From positions 17,000,907-17,064,906 of the forward strand of contig NC_049983.1 in assembly GCF_000003815.2 (NCBI RefSeq): a DNA stretch of 64,000 nt, written 5' to 3'. The notes beneath the pieces were generated by a model, which saw only the letters and a program-made list of their open reading frames with translations, had not been told where the DNA came from and searched no databases. Shown piece after piece: positions 15,301-48,901 of the stretch (position 1 is its first letter; each line of letters starts with the position of its first letter). The stretch comes from Branchiostoma floridae (taxonomy: Eukaryota; Chordata; Leptocardii; Amphioxiformes; Branchiostomatidae). Made by a program: the position numbers and the translations under genes.

Positions 15301-18300
15301 ACCTGTAGGGCAACCGGCCTGGGCAGCTCAGAAACCAGCCGTGCTCTCCGCTGTGGCGCAGCAGCGCTCTGGCCGACCTGATCACGCAGTTTGCGGTTCC
15401 GACTTGATTAAGTCTTCGTTATTTTCAGAGCTTTGGCGTTGTGTAGCAACAGAAGCATTCTTCCACCAAATATATTCACGAGCTGCATGCTTTACCGAGT
15501 TGGTTCGTATTAGTCTGAATCATTGAAACGCGCAACGTGTCAAAGTGAAACCTAGTACGTAAACATACAAGTCTTTGATCAAAATGTGCATAATCATAGC
15601 ACCTACCCTGTCAAAGGTGGTCGTTTCTTCAACATGGGGTTAAATTGTAGTCTTAAGTTAAGATAAAAGGCATTTAAAGCTTCCCTTGTTGACAGGATAT
15701 ATAATTGGTTAACACCAGTCTACGTCATATACGACTTCTTTGCCTGTAGTGGTGTAACAGTCTGGCGGAGACGAGTATGGGCCTAGCTAAAAACCTAAAC
15801 AAGCAGTTTCTTGTCGCTTTCATCAATTATCCTCTTTAAACGATTTTGAAAAAACACCCCTGCAATTCAAGAACAAACTGCTGGGGCCCGAAATCTACAT
15901 CTTTCTTACCTCACATCAGTAGCTTTCTGCCACCAAAAAATAAATCAAGACCATAGCATGTCCACGACAAAGGATACAAAAAAACGTAAATTCTGCTGCG
16001 GTGCTAATGATAGCCAACAGGACAACCAAATTGATTTTGCGCCTTGCATTTGTCTTCCCAAGACCTACCAACAAACCAAATATTTTCGCAATCCATACAG
16101 CATTGCCTCTACTGTTATGCAATGAAAGCATACCCGGAAAACACAAAGGGACCAAAATATACCTCCCTTTTCCAGGAGGTAACAGTCATGCAGGTAACAA
16201 TTTCAACAAGGAATAATGGTAATATGACTGACTTGCCATTTACCTCACGATTGAGACAGACCGAAGCCATCTCTAGGATAATTTAATGGTTCACATTGTT
16301 CACAGTCAAACAAGGTTTCAATTCTGTCAAGTCTAAGAGAAATCAAAGTATGCGGAAGTAAAGGTTCATAACTGAATACTGATGCTGCGTGACGAGTCCG
16401 GGAGAGTCCCTAGCCTCCTCACCGGCCTCTCTGGGGCATTGGCGTAAGTTGTTGGGGATAGGAAAGGGAGTGGGGGGTACAAGCTTCCCGGCGTATATTC
16501 CTTTCCCGGCATTTTTCCTTTCCCGGCATTTTTCCTTTCCCGGCGTATTCCCAGTTAAAAATCATGAATGACTCCTTGAATGTTGCACTGAACGTTTAAC
16601 TGCGATCCCTTCCAGTCAGTGTGCAAGTTTAGGGTTCTGCATCAATAGTATGACTCCTTCTGTGCTAGATAAACGCTTGCAATGAATCCATGCATATTTT
16701 CTTACCTAATATCCTGTGTGTTGTGTCCGAGCAGATTCCCTCCCGTTGCCCGGGCAACCCGAGGCCTTCAACGTGAGTGAGACGGAGACCGAGCTGCAGT
16801 GGCCGCCTCTCGCCAGAAGCTCCCCTGTCCAACACGACCCCATCGACGGGTACTTTGTGGAGGTGCGCAAGTCTGGAGAGCAGCAGTGGAGGGCCTCGAC
16901 GAGACCTTGCAAACTGACCAAGTGCAAGGTCAAGGGCTTGCTTCCGGACACGGCCTACTACTTCCGGGTCAAATCCGCCCGAGGGTCGAGTGAGAGCGGC
17001 GCGAGCGAGACGTCTCATGCCGTGGTCACACCTCGTGCGACAGGTGGGTGCATGCTTGGAGATTTCATCGGTAACAAAGTTTCAAACTCGTGTTAAAAGT
17101 TTCTAACAGAGTCCTTATACCCCTGTCACATTATCCACGACCTTCGGGCGTATCGATAGAAGATCGGCCATATTTAAGACCGACAGAAAGTTGCGCGTTA
17201 AGTTTCACCTGAAAACCGTCACACATAAGCCATACTTTGTACTTTGTACAATTGTTGTGCAATAAAGTGATCATTATTAGCGAGGCTCGGGCGATTGCCG
17301 CAGAATCGTCGTCCGATCGATTTTCGCCAAATGTGACAGGGGTATTATCACGAATCACGTAATTATGGGTAACGCATGAGACAGGCGTTGCCATAGCAAC
17401 GCGTATTGGGCACGTTCGCGCTGCTTTGTCACTACTATGACAATGACTCGCTTGCCCCCTAGCATTACCCACAGTTCTCTATTTAATTCCAATCATGAAA
17501 ATCAATGCGGAATATTATGAACAGTCTGATTCTTAGATATGTGACAAATGTTAGTCGGCGTTGATGAATGAACAAAATACAAGTTGTAATATTACGACAC
17601 TCATATGTGAGATGTACAAACAGGTGGCGTTTTATACTGCTTTTTCCGAATGCTTTCGTTTCTGTTTCTACCTTAGAAGATTATTAGATGAAAAATATCT
17701 AACCCTGTCCCATTTCTGCTTTTATCTGGTTCATTCACGATCAAGCCGGTGGCGATCGGCCAAAATTCAAAGTGTAGCTTTTTCATCACAATTATTATAT
17801 ATTAAGAATGTGCCTAACAACGTTTTGTTATTCCAGACGACAACTGGAAGGAGAGGTTGCGACAGACCCTGGCCAGCGCGGCCGCCCAGCACACCGAGCC
17901 CTGCCCGTTCTGTAACCTCCCCAAGACGGACTCGGAGGACGGCAGGCCACAAGCGGTGGTAAGCTAGCCAGAGTCTATTCCTAGACGCCGTGCGTGTGTT
18001 TGTTGCCATCGTTTACACTTGTTTGAAATCTTTGTATCTATTTGTAAAGTACATTACAAGGTTTCCGAGGATTTCAAAATTAATTTTGTTTACATCATTA
18101 TTCTAGCTTTATTTTTTACCTACAATCTGTATATTTTACAATTGTAAATAAAACGTTAAAACGTACGCGTGTGAAACGAAGAAAAGTGGAATATCAAGTT
18201 TTATGGGTTATCGGTTTTCCTGATCCCATCACGCTCCTAGCGGTACCTCTTCGTACTGATCGGTTCTCTTACAGGAAAGAGACCGTTACAGCCCTGATTA

Positions 18301-22265: not shown

Positions 22266-23684
22266 TTATTTATGCGTGTCGGTGCGTTGTTTTGATTTAG
22301 TCTTTTTTGTTGCAGAATTATTGTGTTTTCTTTTTCTAGCAGCATGCCTTTCCACGTGACGCTTTAGATTATACAATCTTGTTGCAGAGTAATCACATAG
22401 CTCACATTTGTATGGTCTTATACCAGTGTGTTTAAACTTGTGCTGTTTCAAATCGGACATTTCTGCCGCAGCGAAATCACAGACGTCGCACTTGTACGGC
22501 TTCTCGCCAGTGTGTGTGACCATGTGCCTCTTCAGGTGGGACATACGCGTGGCGGAGTGAGCACAGATGCCACACTTGTAAGGTTTCTCTCCGGTGTGCT
22601 TGTACATGTGCTGTCTTAAAGCTGACTTTATCGCTGTAGAGTAGTCGCAAACGTGACACTTGAATGGTCTCTCGCCAGTGTGTTTTACCATGTGTAGCTT
22701 TAAATGGGGCATCTGCGAAGCGGAATAATCGCACAGCCCGCACTTGTAAGCCTTCTCCCCGGTGTGGGTAGTCATGTGGAGTTTCAGACTCGACTTCACT
22801 GCGGCGGAGTAATCACATTGATCACACTTGAATGGTTTCTCGCCAGTGTGTTTCGACATGTGTAACTTTAAGTGAGACATTTGCGTGGCAGAATAATCGC
22901 ACTTGTTACACTTGTATGGTTTGCTTCCCGTGTGCTTTAACATGTGCCTTTTTAGGTTGCACTGCTCTGCGGCGGAATAGTCGCAAATTTTACATTTGTA
23001 CGGTTTCTCACCGGTATGTATGGCCATGTGTTGCTTCAAATGTTGCTTTTGAATGGTGGAGTAGTCGCATATCTTACACTTGTACGGCTTCTCCCCAGTA
23101 TGGTTGGCCATGTGAAATTTGAGATTCTTTTTGCTCACTGACGAAAAGTCGCACTCCGTGCATTTGTGAGGCCGGTGGTTGCTGTGTTTGGCCATGATGT
23201 GGCTCTCTAGGTTACACTTCTTTGCAGCGGAATAGTCACAAATGGCGCACTGATACGGTTTCTCGCCGCCGTGAATCGTCCTCACGTGACTGAGAAGGAC
23301 GTACTTGTCTGCCGTCGCGTACCCGCAGTGTCCGCACACGTACGGTCTCACACCGGAGTGTTTGGCCATGACGTGCCTTTTCAGACACTGCGACTGCACT
23401 GCGGTGTACTCACAGTGTTGGCACCGATGGGGTCTCTCGCCGGTGTGTATCCTGAGGTGCTTGGTCATAGCGGACTTCATGTCCGTTTGGTAGCCACACT
23501 GCGGACACTTGTGTCTCTTACCTCGTGCAGCGAGATCTTTGCGTTTCTTTGCCTTTGGAGCAGCACGTTTACCTTCCCGACGTTGTTGTATGCTTTCAAG
23601 CTTGACGTCCTGTTGTTTTGTCTCTCCATCTTCAGTTTCCGATTTGTGTTCCTCTTGATTTTCATCTATGGCTGCATCTATCAG
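22266..23684 (-). CDS. C2H2 zinc-finger protein, last exon with 14 fingers
   Basis: A single large exon opens after a good acceptor (ttttttctgttattag, ending at 23685) in phase 0; upstream exons were not identified. It encodes an acidic Gln/Glu-rich stretch and a basic segment (KAKKRK, a candidate nuclear localisation signal). Fourteen consecutive C2H2 fingers follow, with TGEKP-type linkers and a recurrent CDYSA core in the finger loops. The C-terminus is basic (KRKHNN...KKTKSKQ) and ends THK-stop. The AAATAAAT at the stop codon contains an overlapping AATAAA. Such poly-fingers normally bind DNA in the nucleus; no KRAB, BTB or SCAN domain is visible in this exon. No one-to-one orthologue is recognised; lineage-specific expansion of such genes is common. 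Confidence 0.88.
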   Translation of the reverse strand: MIDAAIDENQEEHKSETEDGETKQQDVKLESIQQRREGKRAAPKAKKRKDLAARGKRHKCPQCGYQTDMKSAMTKHLRIHTGERPHRCQHCEYTAVQSQCLKRHVMAKHSGVRPYVCGHCGYATADKYVLLSHVRTIHGGEKPYQCAICDYSAAKKCNLESHIMAKHSNHRPHKCTECDFSSVSKKNLKFHMANHTGEKPYKCKICDYSTIQKQHLKQHMAIHTGEKPYKCKICDYSAAEQCNLKRHMLKHTGSKPYKCNKCDYSATQMSHLKLHMSKHTGEKPFKCDQCDYSAAVKSSLKLHMTTHTGEKAYKCGLCDYSASQMPHLKLHMVKHTGERPFKCHVCDYSTAIKSALRQHMYKHTGEKPYKCGICAHSATRMSHLKRHMVTHTGEKPYKCDVCDFAAAEMSDLKQHKFKHTGIRPYKCELCDYSATRLYNLKRHVERHAARKRKHNNSATKKTKSKQRTDTHK

Positions 23685-26790: not shown

Positions 26791-28260
26791 ATTACATAAT
26801 GCTGTCGGGATGTAGGGGTCGTCTGGCATGCTGAGTCATGTTCAAACACCGACTTCTCAGAATTGGTTGGTAATTGATCCGACGGCTGATGGAGCTTACA
26901 GTGAGCCAATCTCCAAGTTAATGAACCGGTTGGGTCATTTTGCTAGTGTGGTCTTTTCTGGCCGTCTCTACGTCAATCTACCTATTGTGGTGCACGCGGT
27001 CTTGCAATTGGGGTTCGCACCTCTCGCTTTATAGATGTCAGCAGAGAGTTGTGATGTTGCGGCACTTCCTCTGTTTCTCAGAATCTGAACTGTTTTACTT
27101 TGGGACTGCTATATGATAGTTGAGACCACTTGTTTAGCGGAAAACTTAAGATTAGCTCGAAAACTAGTGACTTCATCGTCTGAGAATCTGACAGCATATG
27201 AAGAAATGAACCATTCTGTAAACAGGGAAATGAAATGTCACAATTGAAATGTCGCAGCTGGTGAACCTTATTTAACTTAACCCGCGCTGTTTGGCACAGT
27301 TCATACATACTGTTGTGCGAGTGTTGCATGGAAAGGTAAGAGACTTGAAGCTAATATTTGTTTTTATACTGAAACTTTGAAATGTTAGGGTAATGAGGCT
27401 GAAAGCAACAAGCTAGAGTTCAAGGGAGGAGAAGGTTAGGCGTCAAGAAGGACAGGACATTACAATGATGCATATTGACACGGACCTTGATGGTTAAACA
27501 TGTGTGTATCTCCCGAAAACAAATAACTACATCTGCTCTCACCTACTCCGGGGCGCGTGATCTGATGTAAAAACACTTGTTCAGCTAAAAACTTGACATG
27601 ATTTAAAAGACAGCTTCAGAAAGACCACCTTGTCAGGTCCGTGAGATGTGGGTCCCAATGCCTACTGCCTGTCAGCTGGAGGTACCTTTTTAGCCATCCT
27701 GGCCACCATCGTGACGTCACAACCTTTTATAGAGCCACGGCCACACCGACGGGACAAATAGCTTTAGACGTCGAAAATTCGTAGTTGCGATAATGTCGTA
27801 GTTACAATTCACTATTGATCAAAATAGAAGTTACGATTTACTTCGTAATCGCGATGACATTAAGGATATTTTGATTGAACCTTCCTATTAAAATGACTTC
27901 GTTTATTGATGGAATGAATTTAATGTTTTCCACTTGTTCATGTGCTGATGATGCAATAAAATGGTAAACGCATTATTGGCGGTGATTTCCTTGAGTGTGA
28001 AGAACGATACTCTCGTGACCTCAGGGGTGTACGGAGGAGTTATTATCAGCTCGTGTGGCTGTGTGTCTACCTGTCCTCGAGTTTGCAGCTATTCCCATGT
28101 TCCATAGATTGGCACGTTTCGCTTCCCAGTGACAGGAAGTGACTAGCAAAGGTCAGATTTCCGGAGTGACAGGACGTTAAGTTGTTCAACCTGACACATA
28201 TTCTACGTCCTGGGGTCAATACATTGATGAAAGAGGATGCTAATTCCCATGAATAACATT
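26791..28260. other. Intergenic DNA
   Basis: No convincing gene on either strand. A small transcript cannot be excluded. Confidence 0.35.
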
Positions 28261-28269
28261 AAAGGCAAC

Positions 28270-28960
28270 AAAGAAATATCAGTTCTATCATTTAAGTAGA
28301 ATTCTGTATTTAAATTTTACACACAGTCTCAGATACCAAACATTTTGCACTGATATGCTTTGTATTCGTTCGGAAGCTCAACATTATACCTCTAGAGCTC
28401 AAAATCAACACACGAATAAGACGGAATATTTTGCATGGTACACTTGCAATGTGGCTTTAGAATTTAAAAAGAAACACATGTGTAGAGATTGTAGAGACAT
28501 CGTTATATTTCTTTTCACTTGTTACTAATTCTTAGACTTGTACGTAAACTTTAACAGCGACAAACAAATATCAGTTCTATGCTAAGTAGAATTCCGCATT
28601 ATATCATACTTAAATCACAGATCGTGTTCTAACGAAAAAATGCACTAAAATGCTTCTTCGTTCGTAGTATAGCACGAACATTTTGTGGGGGTTTAGGGCC
28701 AGAGCAGAAACAGTTTCCAGTACAGTAGACTATATATCCGTCACTCTATTCAGTTCACGTTATTTTCAGCCTGTCTGTTCTGCAACACATTCCTGATGAG
28801 GGTCGTTATATTTCTTTTCACTTGTTGCAATTTCACAGCATTGAATCTTACATAAATAACAAGTCGTGTGCTACTAAAACTTTAGCTTTTTCGTTCGTAG
28901 GCTTTACATTTTATGGGAGTTTAGGGCCTGAGTAGAAACAACTTCCGGTACAGCAGACTA
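28270..28960. repeat. Tandem duplication 3' of the RING-Rab gene, including a copy of its terminal exon end
   Basis: 28680-28805 (tttagggcc ... cgtcactctattcagtt ... ctgtctgttctgcaacacattcctgatgaggg) repeats 28912-29028 with a spacing of about 230 bp. The block atatcagttctat...agtagaattc also occurs twice (about 28278 and 28568). The upstream copy carries the last coding codons and stop region of the neighbouring gene but then diverges. Confidence 0.75.
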
Positions 28961-28977
28961 CATATCCGTCACCCTAT

Positions 28978-31694
28978 TCAGTTGACGTTATTTTCCGGCT
29001 GTCTGTTCTGCAACACATTCCTGATGAGGGTCTGGAAAGCGAAGTCCAGCACGGAGCGATCCTGACAGTCCGTCTCCAGGTACGGGATACCCTTACTGTC
29101 GCACCACGCCTGCGCCTCTCCGGGCTGAACCTGACATGGACAGGGTTAAAAGATTTCATGAACAAAAAAAATGTGACGTAGCATTTCCTATAATTCACGA
29201 AAATAAAAACGATAAATATAAGTGATAGACACAATGCAATTGTCAAGATGGCTTCAACAAAACAAAGGGGTAGATAGCGTATACTCATAATGGAGCAAAC
29301 AATTCTTTACACCTATGAAAGAAGACACTACTTGAAGCATTATGAATTTTTTTGTACACGGGGTAACACCATTGCGATGATGCTATTTTGGCTAAATTGG
29401 CCGTGGTAGAAAGTGATTATAGATGTATACAAAGCTATAACGTGACATACGAAAATACAAAAAAGGAAAGGTCTGTTATTGTAGAATTATGAATTTGTCC
29501 GAGCTTTTTTAATCACTTTTTACAAATCACGGATAAGGTAACATTTACCTCGTGTGTGTCATCAGAGCTTCTGAACTTGATGTTTCCAATGACGATGAAT
29601 GGCACATCTGTTGTCTCTTGGGTGTCCAAAACCCCTTCATGAGCCTCGGTCTCCATCGTAACATTAGGACCGGCTCTGTCGTCGGTTGCTGTCGTTTCAG
29701 AAGTATCCAGATCTGTGACATCTGTGTCCCTTTTGGCATCTTTACCTGCAGCGTTTCTGTTCGGGTGACTTTGGTCCTCTTCCAAATCGCTAACGCTCGT
29801 CTTGACGAAGTCCACAAACTCGTCAAGAGCTGATGACACCTTCTTGGACGTCTTCTCAGCCGTTGTCTTCAAATCATCGAGGATTTCGTTGAATGGAGAG
29901 GTATCGTCCTTCCCGGTTTCTTTGTTGATATTGTGATCGGCGTCTAAGAACATTTTGTCGGCGTTACTAGCGGCTGTGATGGTAAGAAAGTCGTCTCTCC
30001 ACCATTTGACTTTCTCGAAGGATTCTGGGTGCGATGCGTCATAGACGAGAACCACCGCGTCAGCCTGTCTGAAGTATCGCGAGATGACGGACCGAAATCT
30101 CGCGTCGCCAGAGGTGTCCCATAGCTGCATGCAAAAGAAGGAGACACAAATTCTTAATTTTTTACATTTGAAATGTGTACAAAACATCCATTAATTGACC
30201 ATCCAACCAATCAATCAATCCATCAATCAATCAACCAACAAATAAATCAAACCCACCTGAAGGTTGATTTTTCTCCCATCAACCTCCACCACTTTCCGAC
30301 AGAAGTCGATGGACAGGGTAGAGTCGGGGTCACCGTCCGCTAGGCCGGTGTACTTTCCCATGACGTAAGTCTTGCCACTTCTGCAAGGTCAATATGAAGG
30401 TCAGATGTCAAAAGGCGGTGTTAAAAGAATGTGATTTACCATTATTCCGTAAAATCATTTCCTTGTAAAACGTGGGGAAATATACTAGTAATTAAACATA
30501 TGTATAAGGTGGTTGACAAACAGTTAAACAACGTACGTCAATGAACCTGCTTCTCAGAGATCTACTCACCCTCTGTCTCCAAGTAGTAAGATTCTCACAT
30601 CGTTCGGCGTCTGGGGAAGTATACATGACAACAATATTAATCCTTATGATCTCTAAAATATTAACGTTAAGTCACCTTTTCAGTCAAAACAAATCTTGGT
30701 ACATCGTGAAATGGGATTTGGGTTGGAAGTGACAAGACAAACAGATAATCATATTTTTTTCTTGTTAACAGGCATGGCTGTTTATAACGTAAAAAATAAA
30801 AAATGAATGAAAAATAATGAGTAAAAAATAAATCGACGAATCATTCGATATTGAACTGAACAGTGCGACTTATGAAAACCCTAGCCCCTAACCTTAAACC
30901 AAGGAGGTTAAAAAAGACCTTGTTTAACCTCCTTGCTTAAACAGACAATTTGCAGGCCATTTAATACGCTTAAGAAACATGTCCAGACAACAGTACTGTA
31001 TTTGATATAACAACCAAACCTTGGCCTGTTGCTGATGCTGAGACCCGGGCTCACTTTCCTTCAAATCGTTCTCCTTGAAGATTTTCTCCACCGCCTCCTT
31101 ACCTGCCTGGAGACCATCGGTGACCCGTTTCCCCACGGTGTCGTCCAGATCCTGCAAAAGTTCGGACGTACTCTCCGACGCCTGTTCTCGCCACTTCACC
31201 AGGGTCTTCTGCAGTTCGTGTTTCTTTCGCTTAATGGTGTCGCTGATCGGTGTCGGTCCGTGAGGACACTGCCCTGAGGCCACGCACAGGCTACAGACGA
31301 CCCTGTCGCAGTCTTTGCAGAAGAATGCGCCTCGTCCACCGAAATGGTCAGAACAGACAGTGAAGGCTTGCTCGTCGGTTCCAACCGGATCACCGATCGG
31401 GTTTCCCGAGTCCGTCGGGAGGATCCACAGGTTGTCGGGGAGGTTCACTACACCTCCCGGGGGCAGCGCGGAGGCATCGCCGCAGGTCGGGCAGATTATG
31501 GCGGCCTTACCGTCCGCGTAAGTCTCCAGACAGCTCTCACAGAAGTTATCGGAACAGCGCAGGCTCTTGGACAGCGTCAACACTTTGTGGCAGATGCCGC
31601 ACCTGTTGAGTACGTTGCGTGCCGTGCGGTTGGTGTTTGGGGCGTGCTCCAAAGAGGTGAAGACGGCGTGTCCTGTGCTCTCGTATGCCCCCAT
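28978..31694 (-). CDS. RING / B-box / Rab-like GTPase fusion protein (copy A)
   Basis: Five minus-strand exons with matching phase: 31694-31020, 30610-30570, 30380-30257, 30124-29549 and 29130-28978; predicted length 522 aa. Residues 32-71 form a RING (CGIC ... RCSDNFCESC ... CPTC) with Asp where His is usual. Residues 114-145 form a B-box (CSDH ... CKDC ... CSLC ... CPH). Residues about 152-212 are a likely coiled coil. From residue 226 comes a Rab-type GTPase: P-loop GDRGSGKT, switch-I STLSIDF, switch-II WDTSGDARF (Rab WDTAGQERF), and AVVLVYDASHPESF. An acidic insert of about 110 residues follows, then VIGNIKF where NKxD is expected, and a final helix without cysteines. The start MGAYES fits N-myristoylation. 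By family it should be a ubiquitin ligase with a regulatory GTPase; activity is inferred. The donor AAG|gtttgg of exon 1 is weak, but exon 2 has no Met and copy B uses the same boundary. Confidence 0.8.
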
Positions 31695-31699
31695 CGTCT

Positions 31700-33106
31700 C
31701 GTGAACGTTTCACGTATCTGTAAAACCTTCAACTGCCTGCCCAAAAGATTGATAGACCACGGATAGAACACGTTCGGTCAGGGCAACCACGCCTATTTAG
31801 TCATCACATATTATTACGCACATGTCCTACGAGGTCACTCCAATTGGCTTCGGAAATGTTTACGTCAAGCTGGAAATATGCAAGAAAACACGTGGTAATG
31901 CTAGCCTCAGGCTTCTTTGTGGGGTGGAAACGTCATGCTGTGGTGATTTCGACCCGAATTCCCGATGTTTATAATAGTAATTCATCTGTTGTATTATTTG
32001 CAGCCAGTATGTACCCAATTTTGAGTAATGATGCTGATTTTACGTGCTCGACACACCTCCTCGAACTTTATATACTTATAAGATCACATTCAAAATGTTT
32101 TATATGCCTCTTAAGACATTGGGTGTACCTGGAATCTTGGCTCACTTTTCGCTGAGTTGGTATCCAAAGGAAGCTTCCCGTACTGCTGTTGACTCAGAAA
32201 AATCAGGGCTTGCGAATAAAATTGGACTTTACGTCAACTTTTCTAATGATTTTTCTCTCCGTTGTAATCATCCGTCATGTATGAAAGTATTCAAAACACG
32301 TACACGCACAGGTACGCTCTCACTGATCATTGACCCCTCACGAACTAACACCCGGTTGAACCACCACTCCTGTATACATGTGATAGTGCCTGAAGTGGGA
32401 TGAAACACAATATATCATTCTACGACTAGCTACCTCAATTAACAACTAAGCTAAAGCCCCTGTCACTCATAGCCGACAGCGGTTGGGATCTAGTAGTGCG
32501 CAAGGTCGTTTGGGGTTGGGAGTTAGTCAGCAAGGTTGCCTAACTGTCTTTTTAAAGTAGCCTGCGCAAGCCAACCATGAATTTGAAAAAAAATCTTTCA
32601 AAGTTAGCATCTGCTTGGATGCAATCAGGAGAGCCAACTTGAGCTAAAATGGGATATATTCCATGCTTCTCACAACCCAGCGCCGACATTGGTTGGAGAG
32701 AGGTCATGAGTTAGGTCGTGGGAAAGTCCTGAATGTGTGTGGGCTTTAGGCTTTAGCCTTAGGATAAATCGCACGGCAAATATATAAAGCACATATACAT
32801 GTACTGTGGCATACGTGTACACGCAGTATGTAGTACATGCATCTATGTATGTATGTTTAAACTTTACATTACAATCTCTGTATTATCGTATGTTGTAAGC
32901 CCGGTAAGGGTGGGGTACATAGAAATCGTGAAACATAACAGTCACTGTATAGTTGTAGAAAGAATACTAATCTTTATTGCCATTTCACTTCGGTCGATGT
33001 TTCCGGTATTAGAGCAGGTAAATAAAGAAAACCACCCCTGTCCCTTCTGCTGAATGGTATATCCACCCTTTTAGGCATTCAAAGATACATGTACTAGAAT
33101 CCTTAT
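31700..33106. other. Intergenic region between the two RING-Rab genes
   Basis: 1.4 kb containing the presumed promoter of copy A and the 3' flank of copy B. No additional exon is seen. The part at about 32450-32740 is GC-richer and has repeat-like short motifs. Confidence 0.45.
32973..32978 (-). terminator. Polyadenylation signal of RING-Rab copy B
   Basis: tttatt on the plus strand is AATAAA on the minus strand, about 130 bp after the TAG stop. Confidence 0.5.
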
Positions 33107-35680
33107 CTATTTGGCCAAGACGTCCCTGACCAGACCACGAAAGGCCATGTCCAACTCTGTTGCATGCTGGGAGCTGATCATGTGATACCGGATGTTGTTA
33201 TCACGGCACCACGCCCCTACGTCACTCCCCTGCACCTGTAAAAAATAAGCTTATTGACAGTCATAGTGGCCTTATGGATTGTTAAACTGTCTATTGGGTA
33301 CGTGTACGTAAAGTCTAAAAGTCAGACGCATAATTTTGCATAAATGTGTATAACTGTCACAAATTCAAATTTACTCCTCAGCTTACAAGGTTTAACCATC
33401 CAACATGGCGGACGGTACTTGCGTCATAGTCACATGGGTGTAAACATATTTTACATCTAACGAAGAGGAATTAAGCAGCAAAGCACACCTCAGAGTCGTC
33501 TGTAGACCTTCTGTTCCCGATAACCATGAAGGTCACGTCAGCACGATTCTCGACATCGCCGTCACTCGCTTTTTCATCACCATCCCCCTCATCTCGTCTC
33601 GTCACGCCCTTCTTCACGAATATTTTCACCCTTTGTCCAGCTCGTTCGGCGGCTCCCTGTAAATTGTAACAATCGGAGAATTTAGCCAATAGAATCAATT
33701 CCAGACACAGTAGTGACAGCACATGCAGAAAGAAACTTCTAGAAAAACAGTTTTAAAGGTTCTGGACGGAATTACCAATCTCAACAGTGTAAATAGTATA
33801 TGAAATGATTTTCAGTGAACCGACCTACCTCGAGGACTAGATAATTAAAGAGCTTAGTGTGGACAAAATATTTCTCGCTTACCAATTAAATCATTTTGAA
33901 TAACCACAAATGGTTGCTCACAAATAGTACAATTTAAGTGGTACGTTGACAAGTGTCGTTAAAAATTGCATCTTTAACACATTGAAAATGGGTTTAAGAG
34001 TTCTAACTTAACACTTACGACGATTTTGTCGACAAATAATCTGACCGTCCTGGAAGACTCATGGGCACCCATCTTAAGCCTGGTAATCGTCTTGCTTAAG
34101 AAAGATAAATCTTCCTTCGACTGGGCGTTTTTTATATGAATGAATACAGCTAATGCTTGACTCTGATGTTTGAAGAAGATTTCCCGCCACGCTTTGAGGC
34201 TGTTGACGGATTCCGGATGTGACGTATCGTACACGAGAACCACGGCGTCGGCCTGGCTGAAGTATCGCGAGATCATGGATCGAAATCTCGCGTCTCCGGA
34301 GGTGTCCCAGAACTGCATGAAAGTGAAAACAAGATTTGAAAGAAATATGGAAAAGCTATAAGAAAATATAAAGATTGACAAGATGAAGGAGACAAAGGAG
34401 GCAGTGTCTCTTGTGCATTATGCGTTTTCGCGCAATTATCATTTTATGCAAATTCAGATTTAACCGGTGACTTCTAGGTTTAACCACCCAACATGGCCGA
34501 CAATACTTACCTCATAGTTTTTACTGTCTCTGTTTATTTCTCCATATGATGTATTACACATTATCTCACCTGTAGTTTTACTTCTTTGTCGTCCACTGTC
34601 AAGTCTTTCGTCTTGAAGTCGATGCCCAACGTCGGCCCGGGGTCATCGTCCGATCGGTCAGCGTACTTGTTGAGGAGATAGGTCTTGCCGCTTCTGTAGA
34701 TTTAAAGGAAATACGTGTGTATTCTTATAAACAGCTCGCACATGTATGTATATGGCAAACTTTCCTCTGCCCTGGTATTCATCGTACAACAGACACCATA
34801 CACATTAAAATATTTGATATACTGAAGAAACTTTTTACTCCAAATCTAATGCATCATGTCATACGATGACAAATAAAAACAAATACGCTGTACGACACAA
34901 ACAAACCCTGGACTTACCCACTGTCCCCCAACAAAATGATTTTGATATCTTCAGGCATCTGCTGTGAAAAGAAAATAAAATAAATTGAAGTAAAAAACAC
35001 CTCCACAACGATCAGTCGATCAACGATCAATCAAACAAACAATATTTTTTTGTTGATAAAATTTGGTATGCGTGTACCTTTGAGTCTTTTGTTGATTGTA
35101 TAGTCTTTCTGACTTTCACTGCTTGTTCCTTTACACTTCCTACGATTGCCTGCTTGCCCATGTTGAATCCGTCAACAAGTTTCTGACAAGGGGCACACAG
35201 TAGTCCTCGCTCTCGCCTGGAGCCATGGCTCCCAGACAAGTCTGTCAACATTTGGTGCAGTTCTGATCTTCTCCGCTCGACAGCGCTGTTGTCCTCGGTC
35301 CGACTGCCCCTGACGTCGTTCCCGGACAAATGGTCACAAGAGAAGTACGATTCGTCCCACCTCAATTTGCTCGAAGAAAAACGATTCTTTTGGTCTTTTC
35401 TACAGGATTCTCTTTCCAGATGGATGAAGAAATAGGAGGGTAGACCCTCCACACCCCCATCTGGTAATGTAGTCGTCTGAAAGCACAGTGGGCAGGCGAA
35501 GTTGTCTTTTCCCTTTCTGACACATTTCTCAAGACACGTAACACAGAAGCGATGTTGACACGAGAGAGTCTTGTAAATGCAGAGTTTTTCGCGACAGATC
35601 CCACAAGTATCCATAATCTCGAACACAATGTCGCTCTGGGCCCTCGTAGAAGATTCAGTGTCGGCACAGGTGTCTGTCAT
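33107..35680 (-). CDS. RING / Rab-like GTPase fusion protein (copy B, B-box lost)
   Basis: Six minus-strand exons: 35680-35078, 34958-34918, 34693-34570, 34312-34019, 33656-33489 and 33235-33107, all in phase; 452 aa. The RING is canonical C3HC4 (CGIC ... SCQHRFCVTC ... CPLC). Only a remnant (SCDHLSGN) stands where copy A has its B-box. The GTPase keeps GDSGSGKT, PTLGIDF and FWDTSGDARF followed by ADAVVLVYDTSHPES. The G4 position reads VIGNRRST, and the protein ends RDVLAK without cysteines. Exons 2 and 3 are the same lengths as in copy A (41 and 124 bp); the insert is here split by an extra intron. Exon 2 starts with ATG, so a GTPase-only product from an internal promoter is possible. It lies 1.4 kb upstream of copy A in the same orientation, a tandem duplication. 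Confidence 0.8.
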
Positions 35681-35699
35681 GTTGTCCGATCTTCTTCTC

Positions 35700-37732
35700 T
35701 TGCTCTACTTTTGATCTTCAAGTTTCGGGAAAGATTCCATTCCTTTGCGTTTGTAGACATCAAATGAGAATGAAATCAGCAACATCGACACGAAAACATA
35801 CCAAGAGGAATGTAATCAGACGCAGACATGTCCAAATCGGAACTCCAAAGTAACCAGAGAGGGACAGAACCACAGCCGCCAAGAAATCAGACGGTAAAAT
35901 ACCTCAGGCTTATGGACGGAACCATTAAACAACAGGATTTTTTTTCGGAATTCTTTTTCAACGTATTTACTATCCGATACCTAGAGTAGTATTTTGATGT
36001 TGTTAGAAGTATTTATGTAAAGTAATGGAAACTGACTGAAACAAATGCTGACTGAACGAAAACGAATCATACTTAAAAGGGTGATCATCAGTAAATGTAC
36101 TGGCTCTACCTTGTATACAGTAGTTATGAAACCGTGTCCCTGACTGAAAGTTAAGACGTGTGGCATTTCTCTTTTGTCTCTTGTGGATTATGTTGTCAGG
36201 AAGATATGCAAAATGCCCACAAAACGACAAACAAGCTTGTAGATACCGCGTACCGGAATACCAGCTCTATGATAGCCTATGCCTATGCCAGAAAAGGACA
36301 CGAAACAATGCTTGGGCGGAAGAATGCGTGGCTAACTTATAAGGTGTCACGGATTTTTTTATTTGATTGATGGAACTGGGTCACCGGAAACCGGTGTGTG
36401 ACGTCAATGATGGGGCGGTTATACCGGTTGATGAACACAAATACTGACCCTCTTTCAAACTTTTGTTTTCTAAAAACCGACTTTTGACCCCTTGCCCCTG
36501 AAGATACCCCAACACATCTATGAAGCCTTAATGCGAAAAATCCATCGGGTAAATAATGCAACAGATCTAGATTTCCTTAAGTGACAAACAAAAGACGAGA
36601 GAGGACCACAAGAACAGCGTGTATATCATTTCTATGTCATCTTTTATTGTTTTCGTGAAACAAGAGAAACATGATATTGAATAGATATATAGTTTATGAT
36701 ATAATAGTAGACCCTGTTAAATATGTAGAATGAAATCGTTCGAAAACGATTCATGTCCTCATGCACATGCTGGCCGATACGATCAACTTACTGGCTTTAG
36801 ACAGTCAAACTACAGACTTAGCTTCAAAATATACATGAATAAATTGTATTTTCAAGGAGATTGAATTTCCTAAAGAAAGAATTTCACAGAAATTTTTACT
36901 CGTGTCAGCTCTCTTTGATATATTATATTTAATGCTATATTTACTTTATTTTATGAGTTATACAACTGTGGAACGCACTTCCACCCAATACACGTGGACC
37001 TATTATCTGTGTAGAGCTAAACCGGTAGTACTAAAAGAGGTGGTACTTAAGACGAAATTTATAGCTCAACAGGTAGCATTATGAAAATACCTTGTATCAT
37101 CCTTTGTGTAATTGTATACATGTATGTATCATTGTACCTGACTTGTCATCTAATGTGTATGTATTTCTTATCCAAGGCCAACCCTGTTAGCCATGGCTCT
37201 TTATACCTTGGCTGACTGTAGTATATCAGCTCGTGAATAAATACATGAGAGTTTAGACATTTGTACGTTCACAATTTCTACGTACACAGACGGTAACACA
37301 GTGTCTATCTCAGATAGACGTGCAGTTTATATATCTACATGTCAGATCGCATTCACCGAGCGGACGTTGTGCGATGATCATAAATCAGTAGAATTCTTAT
37401 TAGGACAGTCCTTCGTGTCGTACAAAATCCATCTTTCTGGTGACGAAAAGGATCCTTCAGTAAGCGGTTGGCTCTGCCACAGCCTACTCGTAGTCACTAA
37501 CAGACTCCCGCCTGACCGAATAGAAAAGGGGGACTTTGGCCAAATTATGAATAAAGCCAACGAGGAGTTGATTGGCTTAGGAGTGAAATGACCGGTCGGC
37601 GGAATTCTTATCTTTTGCCATCCAGCTAACACGTCTGCTTGGAGGCTATCAAAATCGTACGTCGGCCCATGATGATGTGGTTGTGTCATATTCACTCATG
37701 CAAAATTTCTAAAACGGTTCACTGTTGTGTCC
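35700..37732. other. Intergenic region, RING-Rab B to IMPA
   Basis: No recognised gene. An open frame at 37301-37591 has no similarity I can name and is probably chance or repeat-derived. Confidence 0.4.
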
Positions 37733-40700
37733 TCAGTCTTTGGCAGATCGAAGGTAAACAGGTTCCTCGGTGTCTGGCTTCTTGTGGTCATGCCTCAGCC
37801 CGGAGGCGACCGTCTGCGCAAGCTCCATACTGGAGGCCGCCAGCATGCACCGTCCCATCAGGTTGAACGGTCCGCCTGTAGAAGCAACATGAAGTTCTTT
37901 ACATAATATTGCTTGTGACACACTCCCCAGCTTGGCACTTAGGAAAATTAGCAATCCGAAAACCAGAAGTAATTTTTAGTACAAAACTGGAGAAGTGTAC
38001 TGATGATTTGAGAGTAAATTTCTGTTACTGTAAATCGCTACATTTACCATGTTAAAGTACTGTATGTCTATATCTCTCCCATCGTTTGGCGTATACGGCC
38101 CATCTCCGTTTCTATAGCCCTTGGGCCACACCGTTGTGCAAGCATTACAAGAAGGGGCTGTAGTGGCCTGTGTTCAAGTTCCACACTCTTTTTCATAAGT
38201 ACGAAGTGTTGACTTAAGCAAGAAAAAGCATACTGTATCATTACTCTTGGTTTGAAGCCGCAACCTTGCTATGAACTGATGGGTAAGGTTAACGTTATTG
38301 ATGCGGACGTCAGAAACTGCAGAGCTTACATGTCTTTATTGTTACTCCCAGGACTCCAACACATGGAATGCCAGCATGGCACTTTCTCAGAATGAGGCTG
38401 TCCCCTGACTATTACACTTCCCCGTTGGGGGGTGGGGTTCTAATACTTGATCATTGTCCGAGTTGTATATTGGTGGATTCATAACAAACCTCTTCAACTT
38501 GAAGACAACAGACAGCTTGGCTCACCTGCCGTATCTAAGACCACTCCCCCGGCCTCCCTGATGATGAGCGCCCCGGACGCCATGTCCCAACAGTGGATGC
38601 CGAACTCGAAGTAGACCTCGGCCGCGCCCTCGGCGATCTGGCACATGTTCAGCGCTGCCGTCCCGAGGTTCCTGATCCCTCGGCCCTGCTCCAGCAGGGA
38701 CCTCAGGTTGTGGAACGTGTTTTCCATCTTTTGTGGCGTCAGCAAACTCTTGGCAGTCGTGACGATGAGGGATTCTTTTATATCCGTCGCCCCGCTGACG
38801 GAGATGCGTTTTCCGTCCCGAAACGCCCCCGTGCCTCGCGCAGCTGAGTACATGACGTCCAGAATGGCGTTGTACGTCACCGCAACCTCTATCTCCCTGT
38901 TCACGGAGAGGGCGATGGCCACGGCCACGAACGGGAAGCTGTGCACGAAGTTGTTGGTGCCGTCGATGGGGTCGATGATCCACGTGGGGTCGTCGGTCAG
39001 CTCGACCGGGACGCCCGCCGCTGTCGTCTCCTCGCCGATGAACCTGTGATACAACAACGTTGCAACTGTGACTGAATGTGGTGTGTTCGGTAATCTGTTA
39101 GATACACAGAGCGTTTTAACTGTGAAAATGCAGTATGTTCTCAGTAACTTGTGAGATACAACAACGTTTCAACAATGAAAATGTAGTATGTTCGGTAATC
39201 TAGATCTGTTCGTTAGATAAACAACGTTTTAACTGTGAAAATGTAGTATTTTATGTAAACTAATGTGGTGTGTTCTATAACCTGTGAGATACAAAAACGC
39301 TTCAACCGTGAAATTGATGAAGTTTATTTTGTGGCCACAAATGGTTTCATGAAAGTCATTATACATGTACTTGTATCTTTATGGCAACTAACTTTAGGAT
39401 TTCATTTAGCGATTTCTTCATCTGCCATGCCATTTGTACATGTACCCGGGTATAATACACTCATCGACAACCCCAAGTTTCTTATCTAACTGATTTTTTT
39501 AGTCTAAACTATCATCTATTCGCATTGCAATATCATTCTGTGATGTTACTGTAGGAAACTGTAATTAAATGTGATCCATGATGTAAAAGTATGAGTGGAA
39601 ACGCAACAAAACAAACACGTTTGTACAAAATTTCGGCATAAATGAAGTTCGTTTCAACTACGTAAACTTCTGGTCGCTGGATTTAGTGAAAGGGAGTTTA
39701 ATTCTTAAACCGCGCCTTAAGGCAAAACCTGTCCAGTTCTGTAGGTATCACGTGAACAGTGCGTGTTGTCAGACAGGTTTGGCATGACTACTGCGTGACA
39801 TCCGTATGGACATGTCGTTTGTTGTTAAGCCATGACAACAGTCGTGTAACCAAGGGGCATGCTTTAAAGTCTTTCGGTGGCTACTCATGTGAGTCAAAAT
39901 ACTATAAACGTAGATATCCTTTCAAACACCTTACTGACATTATTGTAACTTCAATTTTAGACTTGAAAATAACTGAAAAAATGTTATATCGAGTTCCAAC
40001 ATATGAGTGAGGATCGACAAATCTGAGGTCAGGTCATGTCATAGCAAGCTACGGAAATTTCCAGTTGTTAATTTCCCAAATACTGAAAGGTCGATTTCCA
40101 AGAATCTACTTTTTCATGTTTGTAAGTCTATTAATGCAAAAGCTCTAATAGTCTATCCCCGTTCGCAGACTAGATAACGTTAGATATTTCAGACACTCAT
40201 CATAACTAGTGATCACATTTGAATGACGACAATTGGTACATGGTAATTGTGGTTACTTTGGGGGGATCTTCTTTTTCTTGCCTGAGTTTTTTTATGGACG
40301 CCCGCTGTCTACTCCTAGAGTTGTTTTCTTCAAGACACTGGAGTATACCTAGTGGTCACTACATACATGTTCCTCTCTAGCTGCAACATCGTCATTATAA
40401 ATCTGGCTACTATTATATATAATATTTGAATACAAGTTAACATGTAGCGTTAACGTTACTTGTTGAAAATCAGTCCTTACCTGTGTGTAGGGAACTTTCT
40501 TCTGAAGAAAGAGAACACCACCTTCTCGACGTTTTGGTCCGTCTCTGTCACCAGGTCTGCGGGGGAAGACTTCATCGTGACCGTCTTCTCCCTGTAGAAG
40601 GCGGACCGCACCTCTTTCCCGGCCATGCGGGCTGCCTCCTTAGCGGCCCCGAGCCATACCCGCCTCTGTTCGTCGGTAACCTGTACCCTCTCCGATTGCT

Positions 40701-41901: not shown

Positions 41902-43069
41902 GTTGTCACCGGGTCGCCTGTTCTACGTGTCAGCTCAGCCTCTCCGCAACAACGATTTTTTGTCCGTCAACAAATAAACAGATGTCACCACGATCGTTAC
42001 TATTGCGAGCACGATATCCGTGGGGAGGGGGGCACAGCGACGGGAAGACTTCAAAGATATAATTCCAAATGCCAAAAGTTGTCTGGGACAGAAAGTTGTC
42101 GATTAGCAAAGTCACATAGCTGATTAGCATAAAACGAATAATTGTTAAAGGTCACACCAAATTTGGCAACGGTCCATCAGTAGCAGATGATTAGCCGCTG
42201 AACATCTTCTTTTGTGCGTCACCGTGACAGGTAAACCCATCCAAACATTTACCTGTACACGTCACGCCCATTCTGTGGGCGATACTATGATTTATAATTT
42301 CTTTTGTTTAATTTAATAAGTAGGAAGAGTAATTCATTCAATTTTCTTTCAACACGAACAACATAACAACCCTTTCGTATACATGGCGTCGAGATTGACG
42401 TTCTTTGTATTAATGAAAAATAAGCATAAACCTGCAAACGAACGAACAAACCGGGGGATTTAAATACCCTAATCCAAATGGTATGTCCCAAATGCACACC
42501 TGGTCACAAAGCATTGTGGGTGAAATCCAACATGGCGGCGTGCAGACGACACTAGCCGGTGTCTTGCCGGTTTGTTGTTTTTTCGCATTTTGTAGTGGTT
42601 TAGAATGAACACTGAGGCTGTTCCAAAGCACAAACAAGCAGCCAGAAAGATATAGACGGTTTGGGTAATGTTTCTTCCTGAGAACGTTGTAAAATCATGA
42701 GTTTACTTCATGGCATATGTGTCGATACCCTACAAAAGTGAAAGTTAAAGGGTAACATATGGTTGTTCAGGAATCGGTTTGCCGAAAATAATTTTCGTCT
42801 GCGTACACTGTTTGATTTTGAATGTCCTCTCCTGTATTGTTTTAAGGATTTTGACAACTTTTTGTCGTTTTTATATGGGGGGCTTATATCATCATCACCA
42901 TGCAGCTTACTAAAAGGCTGTTTATATAGCAGAACAAATTTGGTACTAAAAACTTCATCAGTTGTTGTAATCACGTAACTGCTGTTTACATTGAAACACT
43001 TGTGAAGGTGAAGGTTGCAATAAGTTTTCTTACTGGTACTTCCCTTTTCTTTTAACTAGATCTCAATTG
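41902..43069. promoter_or_regulatory. Shared upstream region of the divergent IMPA and MFSD3-like genes
   Basis: The two coding starts are 1.17 kb apart and diverge. A YY1-type element (ccaacatggcggcg, about 42528-42541) probably marks the start of MFSD3 transcription. A good acceptor (cttttcttttaactag, ending 43060) just before the MFSD3 ATG suggests a non-coding first exon. Confidence 0.45.
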
Positions 43070-46000
43070 ATGAGCAATGGCGCTGACAAGAAGGTAGCAG
43101 AGGACAAAACCAACATGGGGAACCTCCACTCCTACCTTCATTCATTCACTCATTCCAATATCCCCATTCTCACCACACTCTACTTCGTACAAGGCCTTCC
43201 ATATGGCATCCAGGCCCGCTTTCTACCGATCTACCTACGCGCGAAGAACGTCTCCCTCACCAACCTCGGTTTCATCAAGCTTCTCCTGTTGCCATGGCTA
43301 CTGAAGATCGTTTGGGCGCCACTCCTCGATCGGTACAGCAGCAAACAAACATGGTTGCTCATCAGCATGGCGGGACTGATGCTTGCGAGTCTCGCCGGAG
43401 CTGCGATCGACGAGGAACACTTCCTGAGTCTGTGCGTTGTCGTGTTCTTCATGAACTTTTTCGCCTCCACGCAAGACATCGCGGTGGACGGAATTGCGGT
43501 GGCGATACTGAGTGCAGACGAGCTTGGGAAGGGGAACACAGCACAGGTCGTCGGTTACAAGCTCGGGTCGATCGTTGGTGGGGGTGGACTGGTGTGGCTG
43601 AGTGACTACGTAGCCTGGCATCACTTGTTTCTTTTCTTAAGTGTCACCTACCTTAGCACGATAGTGTTGGTGTGCCAACTATCACAACTTCAGAATACTT
43701 ACCTCAGGAACTATCAGTCTAAGTCTAACAGGGACTGTAAAGATATTGAGACGAAAACAGGAAACAAATGTGAATCAAACATGAATGGATACATCCCTAC
43801 AAGTCACACAAAGGACCTGAAAGAAATGTGCAACAAGGAAACAGAAGGAGCTGATTATCACAGACCTGTTGACAGTACAGATGGAGAGAAGAAAAGAACA
43901 GGAAGAGAAGATGACTGGTGGATGTTGCAGGTGTTGAGGAGCCCTGGGACAGGATGGATGATTGTGTACTGTTTGCTGTACAAGTTAGGTACGTGTCATA
44001 CTGTTACATTGTTTTAATATTAAAGTATCTCTGACTATTAAAAGTAAAATACTTTATGATAGAGTGTGCAATGTATTACAATACAAATATCAGTTAACTT
44101 TGGTAAATGAATTGATTGAACAAATGAATAAATGAATAAAAGAATCGACACTTAAATTGCTTGAATTTCCACACAATCTTATTTATTGAAAGGCAAACTT
44201 GAATGCAATTTGAAATTGAAAGAAGGAATGAACGATTACTGTCTATAAAGGAGAAATGATAAGCATCTCCAAGATTCTTTAAGACCATGTTTTTTTCTCC
44301 ACAGGTGAACAAGGTGCCAACGGGATGTTCCCCCTGTACCTGGTGGACCAAGGTATTCCCAAGGGAGCGGTGGGGATGTGGACAGGGGTGGTGGGACAGG
44401 GACTGTCCATTGTTGGGTCACTCCTGGGGGGATGGCTGCTCACTGGACACTCCAACAGGTATGAAAGGACTAAGGCTATTGGCTCGTCCAGAAAGAAGTG
44501 TTCATCATTTCCTAACGTTATTTGTTGATCTGGGTACCATCCAATTCGTACCGGCCATTAGCAATTGGACGGCACCCAGGCTAGTTGTTTGTAGCCTGAA
44601 TACCATCCTCCATAGTGACCGCTGGCTCAATACTTTCACTTGCTAACCAACGTGGTTGTTTGTAGTCGACCGGTTTTGCAAGAATTAGACATATATTTGT
44701 ATATTTATGTATGACTCTAGAAATACATAGCCTGGTATTCACATTTTTCTTGGCCTGATTTGCTTCTCTGATTGCTTCCATGCTGAGTACTGTAGTCCGG
44801 CTCCCATTGATTAATTATGGGCACACAAAATATAGGCAAACTGTGGCTCTGAGTTACTTTACAGAAAAAGGACTGTGATAACTTGAAAATGTATTTTATG
44901 ACAGTGTATTTCTTTGTTGATTAGGTTTTGAAAATGAAGAATCTTTTTATGTTTCAGAACGCCCCTTGACCTTCTTCACTTGACCTTCACGTTACGCCTG
45001 TTACCCATAATCCTGCAGATGGTGGTTATCTGGGAGGGGAACACGGGGGAGTTGTTGTATTCATATGGTATGTTGAAAATAGTCAGTTTTGAAATGCTCT
45101 TCATGTCAAACTTCTCCCCAGAACTCAAAATGTTTCAGTAAGCCCAAAGTCAATTTTTCTTTCCTGGATAACAATGATGTTGTAAATCTTTGTTGTCTTC
45201 TTGGTACAAAACTTTAACAGTCTGAGAAAATTTAACTTGTTCTCAGAACAAAATGTTCAGGATGTCTGCATGTGTGAGAAAAAAAAAGGCAGCGATTTAT
45301 TTGTTATTAGTAATGATAAGTTCACGTTTCAGTCGTCACTGTCAAAATCGTGAACATAAATATTATTATTAAACTTATTTAAAGCATATTGAAATAATCA
45401 GGAATCACAGTATATTAAACGTAACTGGTACAAAATTGATGACCTGTCACATTCCAGCGAGGGTGAGAATGATAGTTGAGTGACACCTGCATGACAAATG
45501 GATTAACCTTCACAGGTGTAGGCTTCTTGGAATCCAGCACATAGGCAGTGGTTTACAGGTGGTCAGCCAAGCATACAGGAATAATTATCATGGCCTCGGG
45601 TTACTGGACTTTTGTGTAGAAAAGTCTAGTGACACCTACTAGAAAAAAAAAGCATGATTTTGAAAACACACTCACTCTCTCACTATCGATCCGGTTTAGC
45701 GTCCATTGAAAAAGTACCTACTGAAAAATTCAAGTAGTGAAAAATGCATCAAGAAAGAAGTTTACATGATATCATGTGTCTGTTGCTTTCAGGCTCCTTA
45801 TTCATTAGTATCATAATGGTAGTAATTTGTAACAGGACTATGCAGATTTAATGTAGATCACAATTCTTGTATGCTACATATGGTGTGGAGCCTGAATTTA
45901 GCATAAAACGACTTAGCCTGACAAATTTAATGTAATACGTTGTAGTCACTGCCTTTCTTTCTAATTAAAGTGTAGTACTCCTCCAATGTAGACCAAGGAG

Positions 46001-47886: not shown

Positions 47887-48073
47887 CCCATGTGAAAATT
47901 CTCTGCGCAGTTTTTATTTTGCTGAATTAACCACAACAGCCAACTATCCGCTCTTGTGTGAAGCAACAGGAGCCACGTAAGGTATTTTTGTTTCGTATTT
48001 TTCTCCAGAAGAGTGCATAGATCCTGAATAATTCTGAAGGACTGAGTAGGAACTTGTTGAGAACAAAGCCAAG

Positions 48074-48901
48074 ATGCCGTACGCCAACCAGCCGCAGGTC
48101 CACCTGACCGAACTGAGCGATGAAAATGTCAAATTCGTGATCGAAGACACCGACTTGTCCATGGCCAACGCCGTAAGGAGGATCTTCATCGCCGAGGTGC
48201 CGACTCTAGCCATCGACTGGGTCCAGCTGGAGGCAAACTCGTCGGTTCTCCATGACGAGTTCATAGCCCATCGAGTGGGTCTCATACCGCTGACCAGCGA
48301 TGACATCGTGGACAGGATGCAGTACTCCCGCGACTGCACCTGCGCCGAGTTCTGCGCCGACTGCGCCATCGAGCTGACGCTGGACGTCAAGTGCACGGAC
48401 GACCAGACCCGCCACGTGACCACGCGTGACCTCATCTCCAGTAACCCCCGCGTGGTGCCCGTGACGTCACGAAGAGCAGAGGACGAGACAGCGGGATACG
48501 GCGAAGCCGACGACATCCTCATCGTGAAGCTTCGCAAGGGCCAGGAGCTGAAACTGCGAGCCTTCGCCAAGAAGGGGTTCGCCAAGGAGCACGCCAAGTG
48601 GAACCCCACCGCGGGTGTCGCGTTCGAGTACGATCCTGACAACGCTCTTCGGCACACCCTCTATCCGAAGCCGGAGGAGTGGCCAAAGAGCGAGTACACA
48701 GAGCTAGACGACGAGACAGCGCAGGCACAGTTCAACCCAGACGGCAAGCCCAACAAGTACTACATCAACGTTGAGTCCACGGGGGCGCTGCGGCCAGAGA
48801 ACATCGTTATGACGGGACTGAGTATTCTGAAGAAGAAACTGAGTGACTTACAGACGCAGCATAGTCACGAGATTCAGAGTGATGTCCTGACCATCAGCTA
48901 G
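48074..48901 (+). CDS. POLR2C: RNA polymerase II subunit RPB3 (single exon)
   Basis: 275 codons, the same length as human POLR2C. RPB3 is the alpha-like subunit that pairs with RPB11 to nucleate Pol II assembly in the nucleus. The sequence starts [21 protein letters not shown] and keeps the alpha-motif [18 protein letters not shown], the [11 protein letters not shown] strand and the zinc-binding cysteine cluster ([11 protein letters not shown]). The C-terminal dimerisation region is FNVESTG-like ([16 protein letters not shown]). The ATG context is gccaagATG. The coding region has no intron, although vertebrate POLR2C has several. GC content is well above the flanks. No frameshift or stop is present, so it is very likely functional. 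Confidence 0.97.

Follow-up and report, generated by a model that had tools for sequence, protein, structure and literature searches.

A pair of genes in tandem on the minus strand of a 64,000-nucleotide stretch of the Branchiostoma floridae genome (contig NC_049983.1, positions 17,000,907 to 17,064,906; the whole of it is called the window below) is best explained as two copies of one chimeric gene, in which an exon of the TRIM type is joined in phase to the exons of a Rab7-derived small GTPase. On balance we consider it probable that these genes, here termed A and B, are TRIM-Rab7 chimeras in which a degenerate GTPase domain would serve as the docking part of a non-switching E3 ubiquitin ligase. 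An earlier interpretation of gene A from the letters of the DNA (the sequence-only reading) had described a RING-B-box-coiled-coil exon joined to a GTPase of the Rab rather than the ARF type, and had suggested that such a protein could couple ubiquitination to a nucleotide switch on membranes.

Predicted structure of genes A and B

Gene A consists of five exons on the minus strand with GT-AG borders, in-phase joins (the four introns have phases 0, 2, 0 and 0) and a predicted product of 522 residues. The model bears out the in-phase connection of exon 1 to the GTPase exons, and all the GTPase motifs on which the sequence-only reading had relied, namely GDRGSGKT, a Rab-like switch I (STLSIDF), WDTSGDARF and YDASHPESF, are found in the product. 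The parts of gene A are as follows:

31020..31694, minus strand: exon 1, with the ATG, the RING (residues 32-71), the B-box (residues 114-145) and a helical or coil segment to residue 225; its 3' border is a weak phase-0 donor, AAG/GTTTGG
31482..31601, minus strand: RING, of the C3-D-C4 type, with Asp replacing the His ligand (CSDNFC)
31260..31355, minus strand: B-box, CSDH...FCKDC..VVCSLC...CPH, with irregular final ligands
30570..30610, minus strand: exon 2, with strand 1 and the first half of the P-loop (GDRG), ending in phase 2
30257..30380, minus strand: exon 3, with the second half of the P-loop (SGKT) and switch I (STLSIDF), ending after LQ in phase 0; its intron positions match those of Rab7
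29549..30124, minus strand: exon 4, residues 281-472 (in part), with LWDTSGDARF, YDASHPESF, the insert and strand 5, which has the N of the NKxD motif and lacks the motif as a whole
29609..29980, minus strand: insert between helix 3 and strand 5, about residues 329-452 (~124 residues, with borders chosen by us)
28978..29130, minus strand: exon 5, from VQPGEAQAWC to the C-terminus ENNVN, lacking C-terminal cysteines

Gene B is a divergent second copy located directly upstream of gene A on the same strand (35680-33107), with six exons, a predicted product of 453 residues and the same domain order, i.e. a RING exon, a phase-0 join and the GTPase exons:

35078..35680, minus strand: exon 1, with the ATG, a C3HC4 RING with all ligands, a lost B-box and a helical segment; its 3' border is a weak phase-0 donor, AAG/GTACAC
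34918..34961, minus strand: exon 2, QMPEDIKIILLGDSG, ending in phase 2; its Met is aligned to the Thr that opens exon 2 of gene A
34570..34693, minus strand: exon 3, with SGKT and switch I (PTLGIDF), ending after LQ in phase 0
34019..34312, minus strand: exon 4, with FWDTSGDARF, YDTSHPESV and the start of the insert
33489..33656, minus strand: exon 5, with the remainder of the insert and strand 5 (VIGNRRS)
33107..33235, minus strand: exon 6, with the C-terminal part, ending in VRDVLAK and lacking C-terminal cysteines

The two proteins are 37% identical over the full alignment, and the identity of aligned residues varies strongly between segments (RING: 41%; coil: 19%; P-loop to helix 3: 62%; insert: 27%; C-terminus: 46%). 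Comparison of the two first exons gave a local score of 146, as against a maximum of 77 in 500 shuffles, which indicates that they are homologous as wholes. One could argue that both copies are decaying into pseudogenes with complementary losses (the RING His in gene A, the B-box in gene B), as motifs have been lost in both domains and the coil and the insert have become so little alike; however, neither model contains a stop or a frameshift, the third codon positions have diverged more than the first and second ones in all 6 segments compared, and the region from G1 to helix 3 has retained its high identity. We regard decay of the chimeras as quite unlikely.

Several repeats were observed in and around the pair. 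The longest direct repeat in the region 28000-36500 covers the acceptor of exon 4 and the beginning of that exon (29994-30139 in gene A and 34182-34327 in gene B; 79% DNA identity over 146 nucleotides). A 127-nucleotide direct repeat (90%; 28678-28804 and 28906-29032), situated just downstream of gene A, is a copy of the end of its last exon and of the 3' flank, and a 43-nucleotide repeat (86%; 33388-33430 and 34476-34518) lies in two introns of gene B.

Descent of the TRIM and GTPase parts

The RING/B-box exon is TRIM2/3-like, as judged from sequence comparisons. The gene A exon matches TRIM3 over residues 31-172, from the RING through the B-box into the following helix (E-value 4.2e-13), and also TRIM2 (E-value 3.7e-10), while the RING of gene B matches TRIM2 with an E-value of 1.8e-10. 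The Pfam profiles were less sensitive: for gene A the zf-C3HC4 and B-box models scored 14.9 and 17.9 bits, under the respective cut-offs of 21 and 24.1, although the B-box aligns to that of TRIM3, and for gene B zf-C3HC4 scored 25.6 bits, over the cut-off. A low-confidence structure model predicts helices 150-172 and 178-211 after the B-box of gene A and a helical first part of its insert; the AlphaFold2 models of A and B have a mean predicted local distance difference test score of 38.1, and no conclusion is based on them.

A search of the genome (513 Mb in 431 contigs) with exon 1 of gene A yielded 408 candidate TRIM-like places, 150 of which, genes A and B included, were scored. Dense clusters of TRIM-like open frames were observed on C17 (17.25-17.51 Mb), C12 (19.18-19.29 Mb) and C15 (20.69-20.73 Mb). 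We fetched 19 of the TRIM loci other than gene A; their open frames range from 215 to 716 residues, with 13 of the 19 reaching at least 600, and the gene A exon ends at 225. In the 1.5-kb flanks of these 19 loci no Rab match with an E-value below 0.1 was found (best: 0.71, at L047). Eighteen of them were aligned, having been chosen by a pattern that requires the RING His, so that the constancy of this residue among them is a product of the selection and no finding; the locus left out (L046) has the His as well. The alignable part, i.e. RING, linker and B-box, spans with the TRIMs of the same genome a region similar to that shared with TRIM3.

The GTPase exons are, by the sequence and gene-structure evidence that follows, Rab7-derived. 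In Pfam searches the Ras family scored 99.2 bits (E-value 2.3e-28) for gene A and 102 bits for gene B, as opposed to 40.9 and 56.4 bits for Arf; the three NCBIfam rows obtained for gene A comprised a generic small-GTPase model just above its cut-off and two others far below theirs. Among the best 60 of 781 (A) and 784 (B) matches in the Protein Data Bank (PDB), Rab7 ranked first and Rab9 next, with Rab1, Rab8 and others below them. An ARF-type identity can thus be dismissed for both copies, in agreement with the earlier assignment to the Rab type. A tree of 19 sequences united A and B with maximal support (100/100) and placed the pair with Rab7/Rab9 (92/87), with two qualifications: the Rab7/Rab9 fork is below the star threshold (reached by 3 of the 16 inner branches), and the human sequences in the tree were entered by hand. 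The identity to the Rab7 of the genome is 34-35%; when the GTPase part of gene A was used to search the genome (25 matches of 58 candidates), the best match after A and B themselves was a Rab9-like gene (34%).

Gene structure provides stronger evidence of descent from Rab7 than the tree. The canonical Rab7 of the genome, located on contig C350, from whose genomic sequence the intron positions were read, is interrupted within the P-loop (GDSG/VGKT, phase 2), before IWDT (phase 0) and between DNRA and VST (phase 0). Genes A and B have the same three introns, namely GD(S/R)G/xGKT in phase 2, Q/(I/L/F)WDT in phase 0 and one before the V of V(S/Q) in phase 0, and gene B has one additional intron, inside the insert. 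The P-loop intron as such is not unique, with 6 of the 150 Ras-family places scored starting at profile positions 7-9, but of these Rab7 alone also ends near position 53. The tree by itself does not separate Rab7 from Rab9 as the parent, and the choice of Rab7 is based on the introns together with the PDB scores; the Rab9-like gene of the genome, on C7, is a single open frame of 207 residues without the shared introns, and Rab9 was rejected on these grounds. An origin from a RASEF-like (Rab45-like) gene, prompted by the resemblance of RYFRQAD to SYFRKAD, was likewise rejected: the tree did not group RASEF with A and B, with the proviso that the RASEF fork itself was not resolved. Another Rab-like gene of the genome (G000:C10:8036500-8043500, L042) has WDTGGQERF, a CC tail on its apparent last exon and no P-loop intron.

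One chimeric gene or two genes

From the sequence models we consider it very likely that the chimeric gene is real. The order of the parts, the phase-0 end of exon 1 and the acceptor are conserved in both diverged copies. In gene A no in-frame ATG (the start codon considered) occurs after the upstream stop at 30646 and ahead of the P-loop; the GTPase exons encode their first Met, residue 246, past the P-loop, so an upstream exon should supply the start. Exon 2 begins with Thr (ACG) in gene A and with Met (ATG) in gene B, as would be expected if gene A had abandoned the former Rab7 start. Among the 150 scored of 408 TRIM-like and the 150 scored of 376 Ras-family candidates in the genome, a TRIM match upstream of a same-strand Ras match within 50 kb was found at loci A and B only (a comparison made with no positive control).

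A number of observations weigh against the fusion. The donors of exon 1 are weak, with scores of 0.32 in gene A and -0.21 in gene B (according to a human weight matrix); for comparison, of the 8089 GT sites of the window 8.3% reach 0.33 and 10.4% reach -0.2. Exon 1 and intron 1 of gene A contain eight GT sites that score above 0, the chosen donor having the lowest score of these, and gene B contains three, the chosen donor not being among them. The best donor in gene A, CAG/GTAAGG at 31103 (score: 7.5), is situated within the segment that encodes the coil and is in phase 1, so that its use would disrupt the reading frame; a possible alternative transcript without the GTPase could arise through it. 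The protein across this site reads DGLQAGKEA in gene A and DGFNMGKQA in gene B, and this correspondence speaks for coding on both sides. Intron 1 of gene A also contains a TATAAA at 30786, 176 nucleotides before exon 2 (0.34 expected by chance in that length), which could act as a second promoter, for the GTPase exons, and no AATAAA or ATTAAA is present within 578 nucleotides past the gene A stop, the nearest being at 27924. These last two observations lowered our estimate that the chimeric gene is real, though only slightly. Beyond the RING the likeness of the two first exons is weak (score: 45; shuffle mean: 28.6, standard deviation: 5.3, maximum: 57), gene conversion may account for part of the likeness of A and B at the start of exon 4, and the transcript that joins the RING exon to the GTPase exons is itself predicted from sequence models.

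Such observations could be accommodated if each unit comprised two genes, one encoding a short RING/B-box protein whose frame runs slightly beyond exon 1 and the other a Rab7-like protein, in which case their in-phase join would be a coincidence of neighbourhood. In addition to the weak donors in both copies and the TATAAA, this explanation could draw on the fact that exon 1 remains open beyond the donor for 31 codons in gene A and 16 in gene B, and on the Met codon at the start of gene B exon 2, which could open a GTPase-only protein. The read-through peptides of A and B are borderline alike (their score was reached by 43 of 1000 shuffles) and so, mildly, are the first introns (score: 29; shuffle mean: 20.3, standard deviation: 2.95, maximum: 32 in 300), which may reflect common descent of the introns or a trace of a RING-only end. 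However, two separate genes would not account for the order, phase and acceptor conserved in both copies, and gene A would lack an ATG ahead of its P-loop; moreover, intron 1 of gene B contains no AATAAA or ATTAAA, and the only one in intron 1 of gene A (30965) is situated ahead of the read-through stop. We therefore deem the two-gene explanation unlikely and prefer a single chimeric gene. Of the separate promoter and start codon that, according to the sequence-only reading, would speak against a fusion, a candidate for the former is thus present in gene A in the form of the TATAAA, while for the latter no in-frame ATG is available before the P-loop.

Elsewhere in the window seven open frames were scanned with Pfam:

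4240-4917, plus strand
16710-17093, plus strand
11857-14262, minus strand
22266-23684, minus strand
38497-39168, minus strand
42995-44014, plus strand
48050-48898, plus strand

Two of these contain fibronectin III domains, and the others correspond to a leucine-rich-repeat protein, a C2H2 zinc-finger protein, an exon of an inositol monophosphatase, an acetyl-CoA transporter-like MFS protein and an RNA polymerase subunit of the Rpb3 type.

Possible function and relationship to known systems

The GTPase part has a mixed pattern of kept and lost motifs, which we interpret in terms of the roles these positions are known to have in Rabs (catalytic, base-binding, effector-side and prenyl-accepting). 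Both copies retain the G1 P-loop GxxxxGKT, the switch-I Thr, DTxG and, on the effector side, the residues corresponding to F45, W62 and F77 of Rab7 (the last being Tyr here). In both the catalytic Gln (Q67) is replaced by Asp and the Asp of NKxD (D128) by Ser (in gene A the placement of the NKxD column hinges on a three-residue gap), the SAK motif has become DCQ in gene A and SSQ in gene B, and neither tail (ENNVN in A, DVLAK in B) contains the C-terminal cysteines used for prenylation. With these losses the domain looks like a pseudo-GTPase devoid of a prenyl anchor: it may still bind the phosphates of a nucleotide, but should select guanine and hydrolyse poorly, and the usual prenylation would be impossible. 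A normal membrane-bound switch is thus unlikely, and use of the domain as a docking surface is favoured.

These losses bear directly on the proposal of the sequence-only reading that a nucleotide switch on membranes is at work, i.e. that the GTP/GDP cycle of the Rab7-like domain governs the RING ligase on the membrane in a TRIM23-like device. In TRIM23 the two activities have been described as connected and as both needed for the induction of autophagy (PMC5794181), and the P-loop, the switch-I Thr, DTxG and the effector-side residues retained here would suit such a device. However, the loss from both copies of the catalytic Gln, the NKxD Asp, SAK and the cysteines, together with the long insert before strand 5, is at variance with a working switch, and we consider this possibility unlikely. 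The degenerate domain is more likely an address than a switch.

The docking reading, to which we return, can be formulated as follows. An exon encoding a RING, a B-box and a helical segment, derived from one of the numerous TRIM2/3-like genes of the genome, would have landed upstream of a duplicated Rab7 gene that still had its introns, and phase-0 splicing into the Rab7 exon that once held the start codon would have fused the two parts, a tandem duplication giving A and B. The product is most likely a TRIM-type E3, or an E3 scaffold, whose Rab7-derived domain would stand in for the recognition domain usually present at the C-terminus. Ligase activity is predicted here with some uncertainty, since the RING of gene A has 7 of the 8 zinc ligands, with Asp instead of His as the fourth, and for gene B no B-box was found among the best 25 of 27 Pfam rows or in the alignments. 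The domain, which retains the phosphate- and magnesium-side as well as the effector-side residues but has lost the lipid anchor, the catalytic Gln and the ability to recognize the base, could dock on partners of Rab7, such as effectors, guanine nucleotide exchange factors or GTPase-activating proteins, or tethers of late endosomes and lysosomes, or else on factors that imitate or attack them, and could deliver the ubiquitin ligase to them without normal GTP/GDP switching. Provided that the chimeric gene is real, we put forward this recognition-module mechanism tentatively, as a serious possibility falling somewhat short of probable. We further speculate, with considerable doubt, that the genes represent an independent second origin of a TRIM and small-GTPase combination, in which an unanchored, non-switching Rab7 look-alike acts as the bait or address of a ubiquitin ligase on late endosomes or lysosomes and may even be a built-in decoy for Rab7-seizing microbial factors.

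The claim that the architecture is undescribed is weakly supported. In partial coverage of the literature, comprising matches that pair RING or TRIM with Rab or that concern Branchiostoma TRIMs and Rabs or TRIM23, no RING-Rab fusion protein is named. Unusual tail domains, namely two MATH domains, are on record for Branchiostoma TRIMs in a paper whose main text contains no word that starts with "arf", "rab", "gtpase" or "ras" (PMC3503706). Likewise, words beginning with "ring" are absent from the main text of a survey of Rabs, which lists Rab44 and Rab45, both with EF hands, as two of the three Rabs with an added domain (PMC3425129).

Rab40 carries a SOCS box, which links a Rab domain to ubiquitination. 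The genes resemble Rab44, Rab45 and Rab40 in having a Rab domain within a larger protein, but differ in the Rab parent and in carrying their ligase module, a RING, within one and the same polypeptide. Compared with Rab7, which together with Rab9 is their best sequence match and neighbour in the tree and with which they share three intron positions and phases, A and B have lost the catalytic Gln, NKxD, SAK and the prenyl cysteines and have gained an N-terminal TRIM exon.

The closest parallel is TRIM23 (ARD1), which likewise has a RING, B-box and coil followed by a small-GTPase domain. TRIM23 consists of a RING, two B-boxes, a coil and an ARF domain with an exon-intron structure virtually that of Arf1, ARF-family domains also occur joined to BTB or F-box domains (PMC8358228), and TRIM23 has been called unique among TRIMs in combining E3 ligase and GTPase activity (PMC5794181). 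As in A and B, the GTPase part has thus retained the exon-intron structure of the parent gene, Arf1 there and Rab7 here; the differences are that the parent is Rab7 and not an Arf, that there is one B-box or none instead of two, that the motifs for base binding and hydrolysis are lost, and that an insert precedes strand 5. The best reading of the tandem pair is that of a design convergent with the union of TRIM and Arf1. If correct, it would be a second TRIM-GTPase case, from another GTPase family and seemingly by the same route (duplication of an intron-containing gene under a TRIM exon), which would make the fusion a repeatable event and would help to establish whether the domain matters in such proteins as an address or through its nucleotide cycle. 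Genes A and B would also offer a natural pseudo-Rab7, the retained and lost residues of which can be tested directly.

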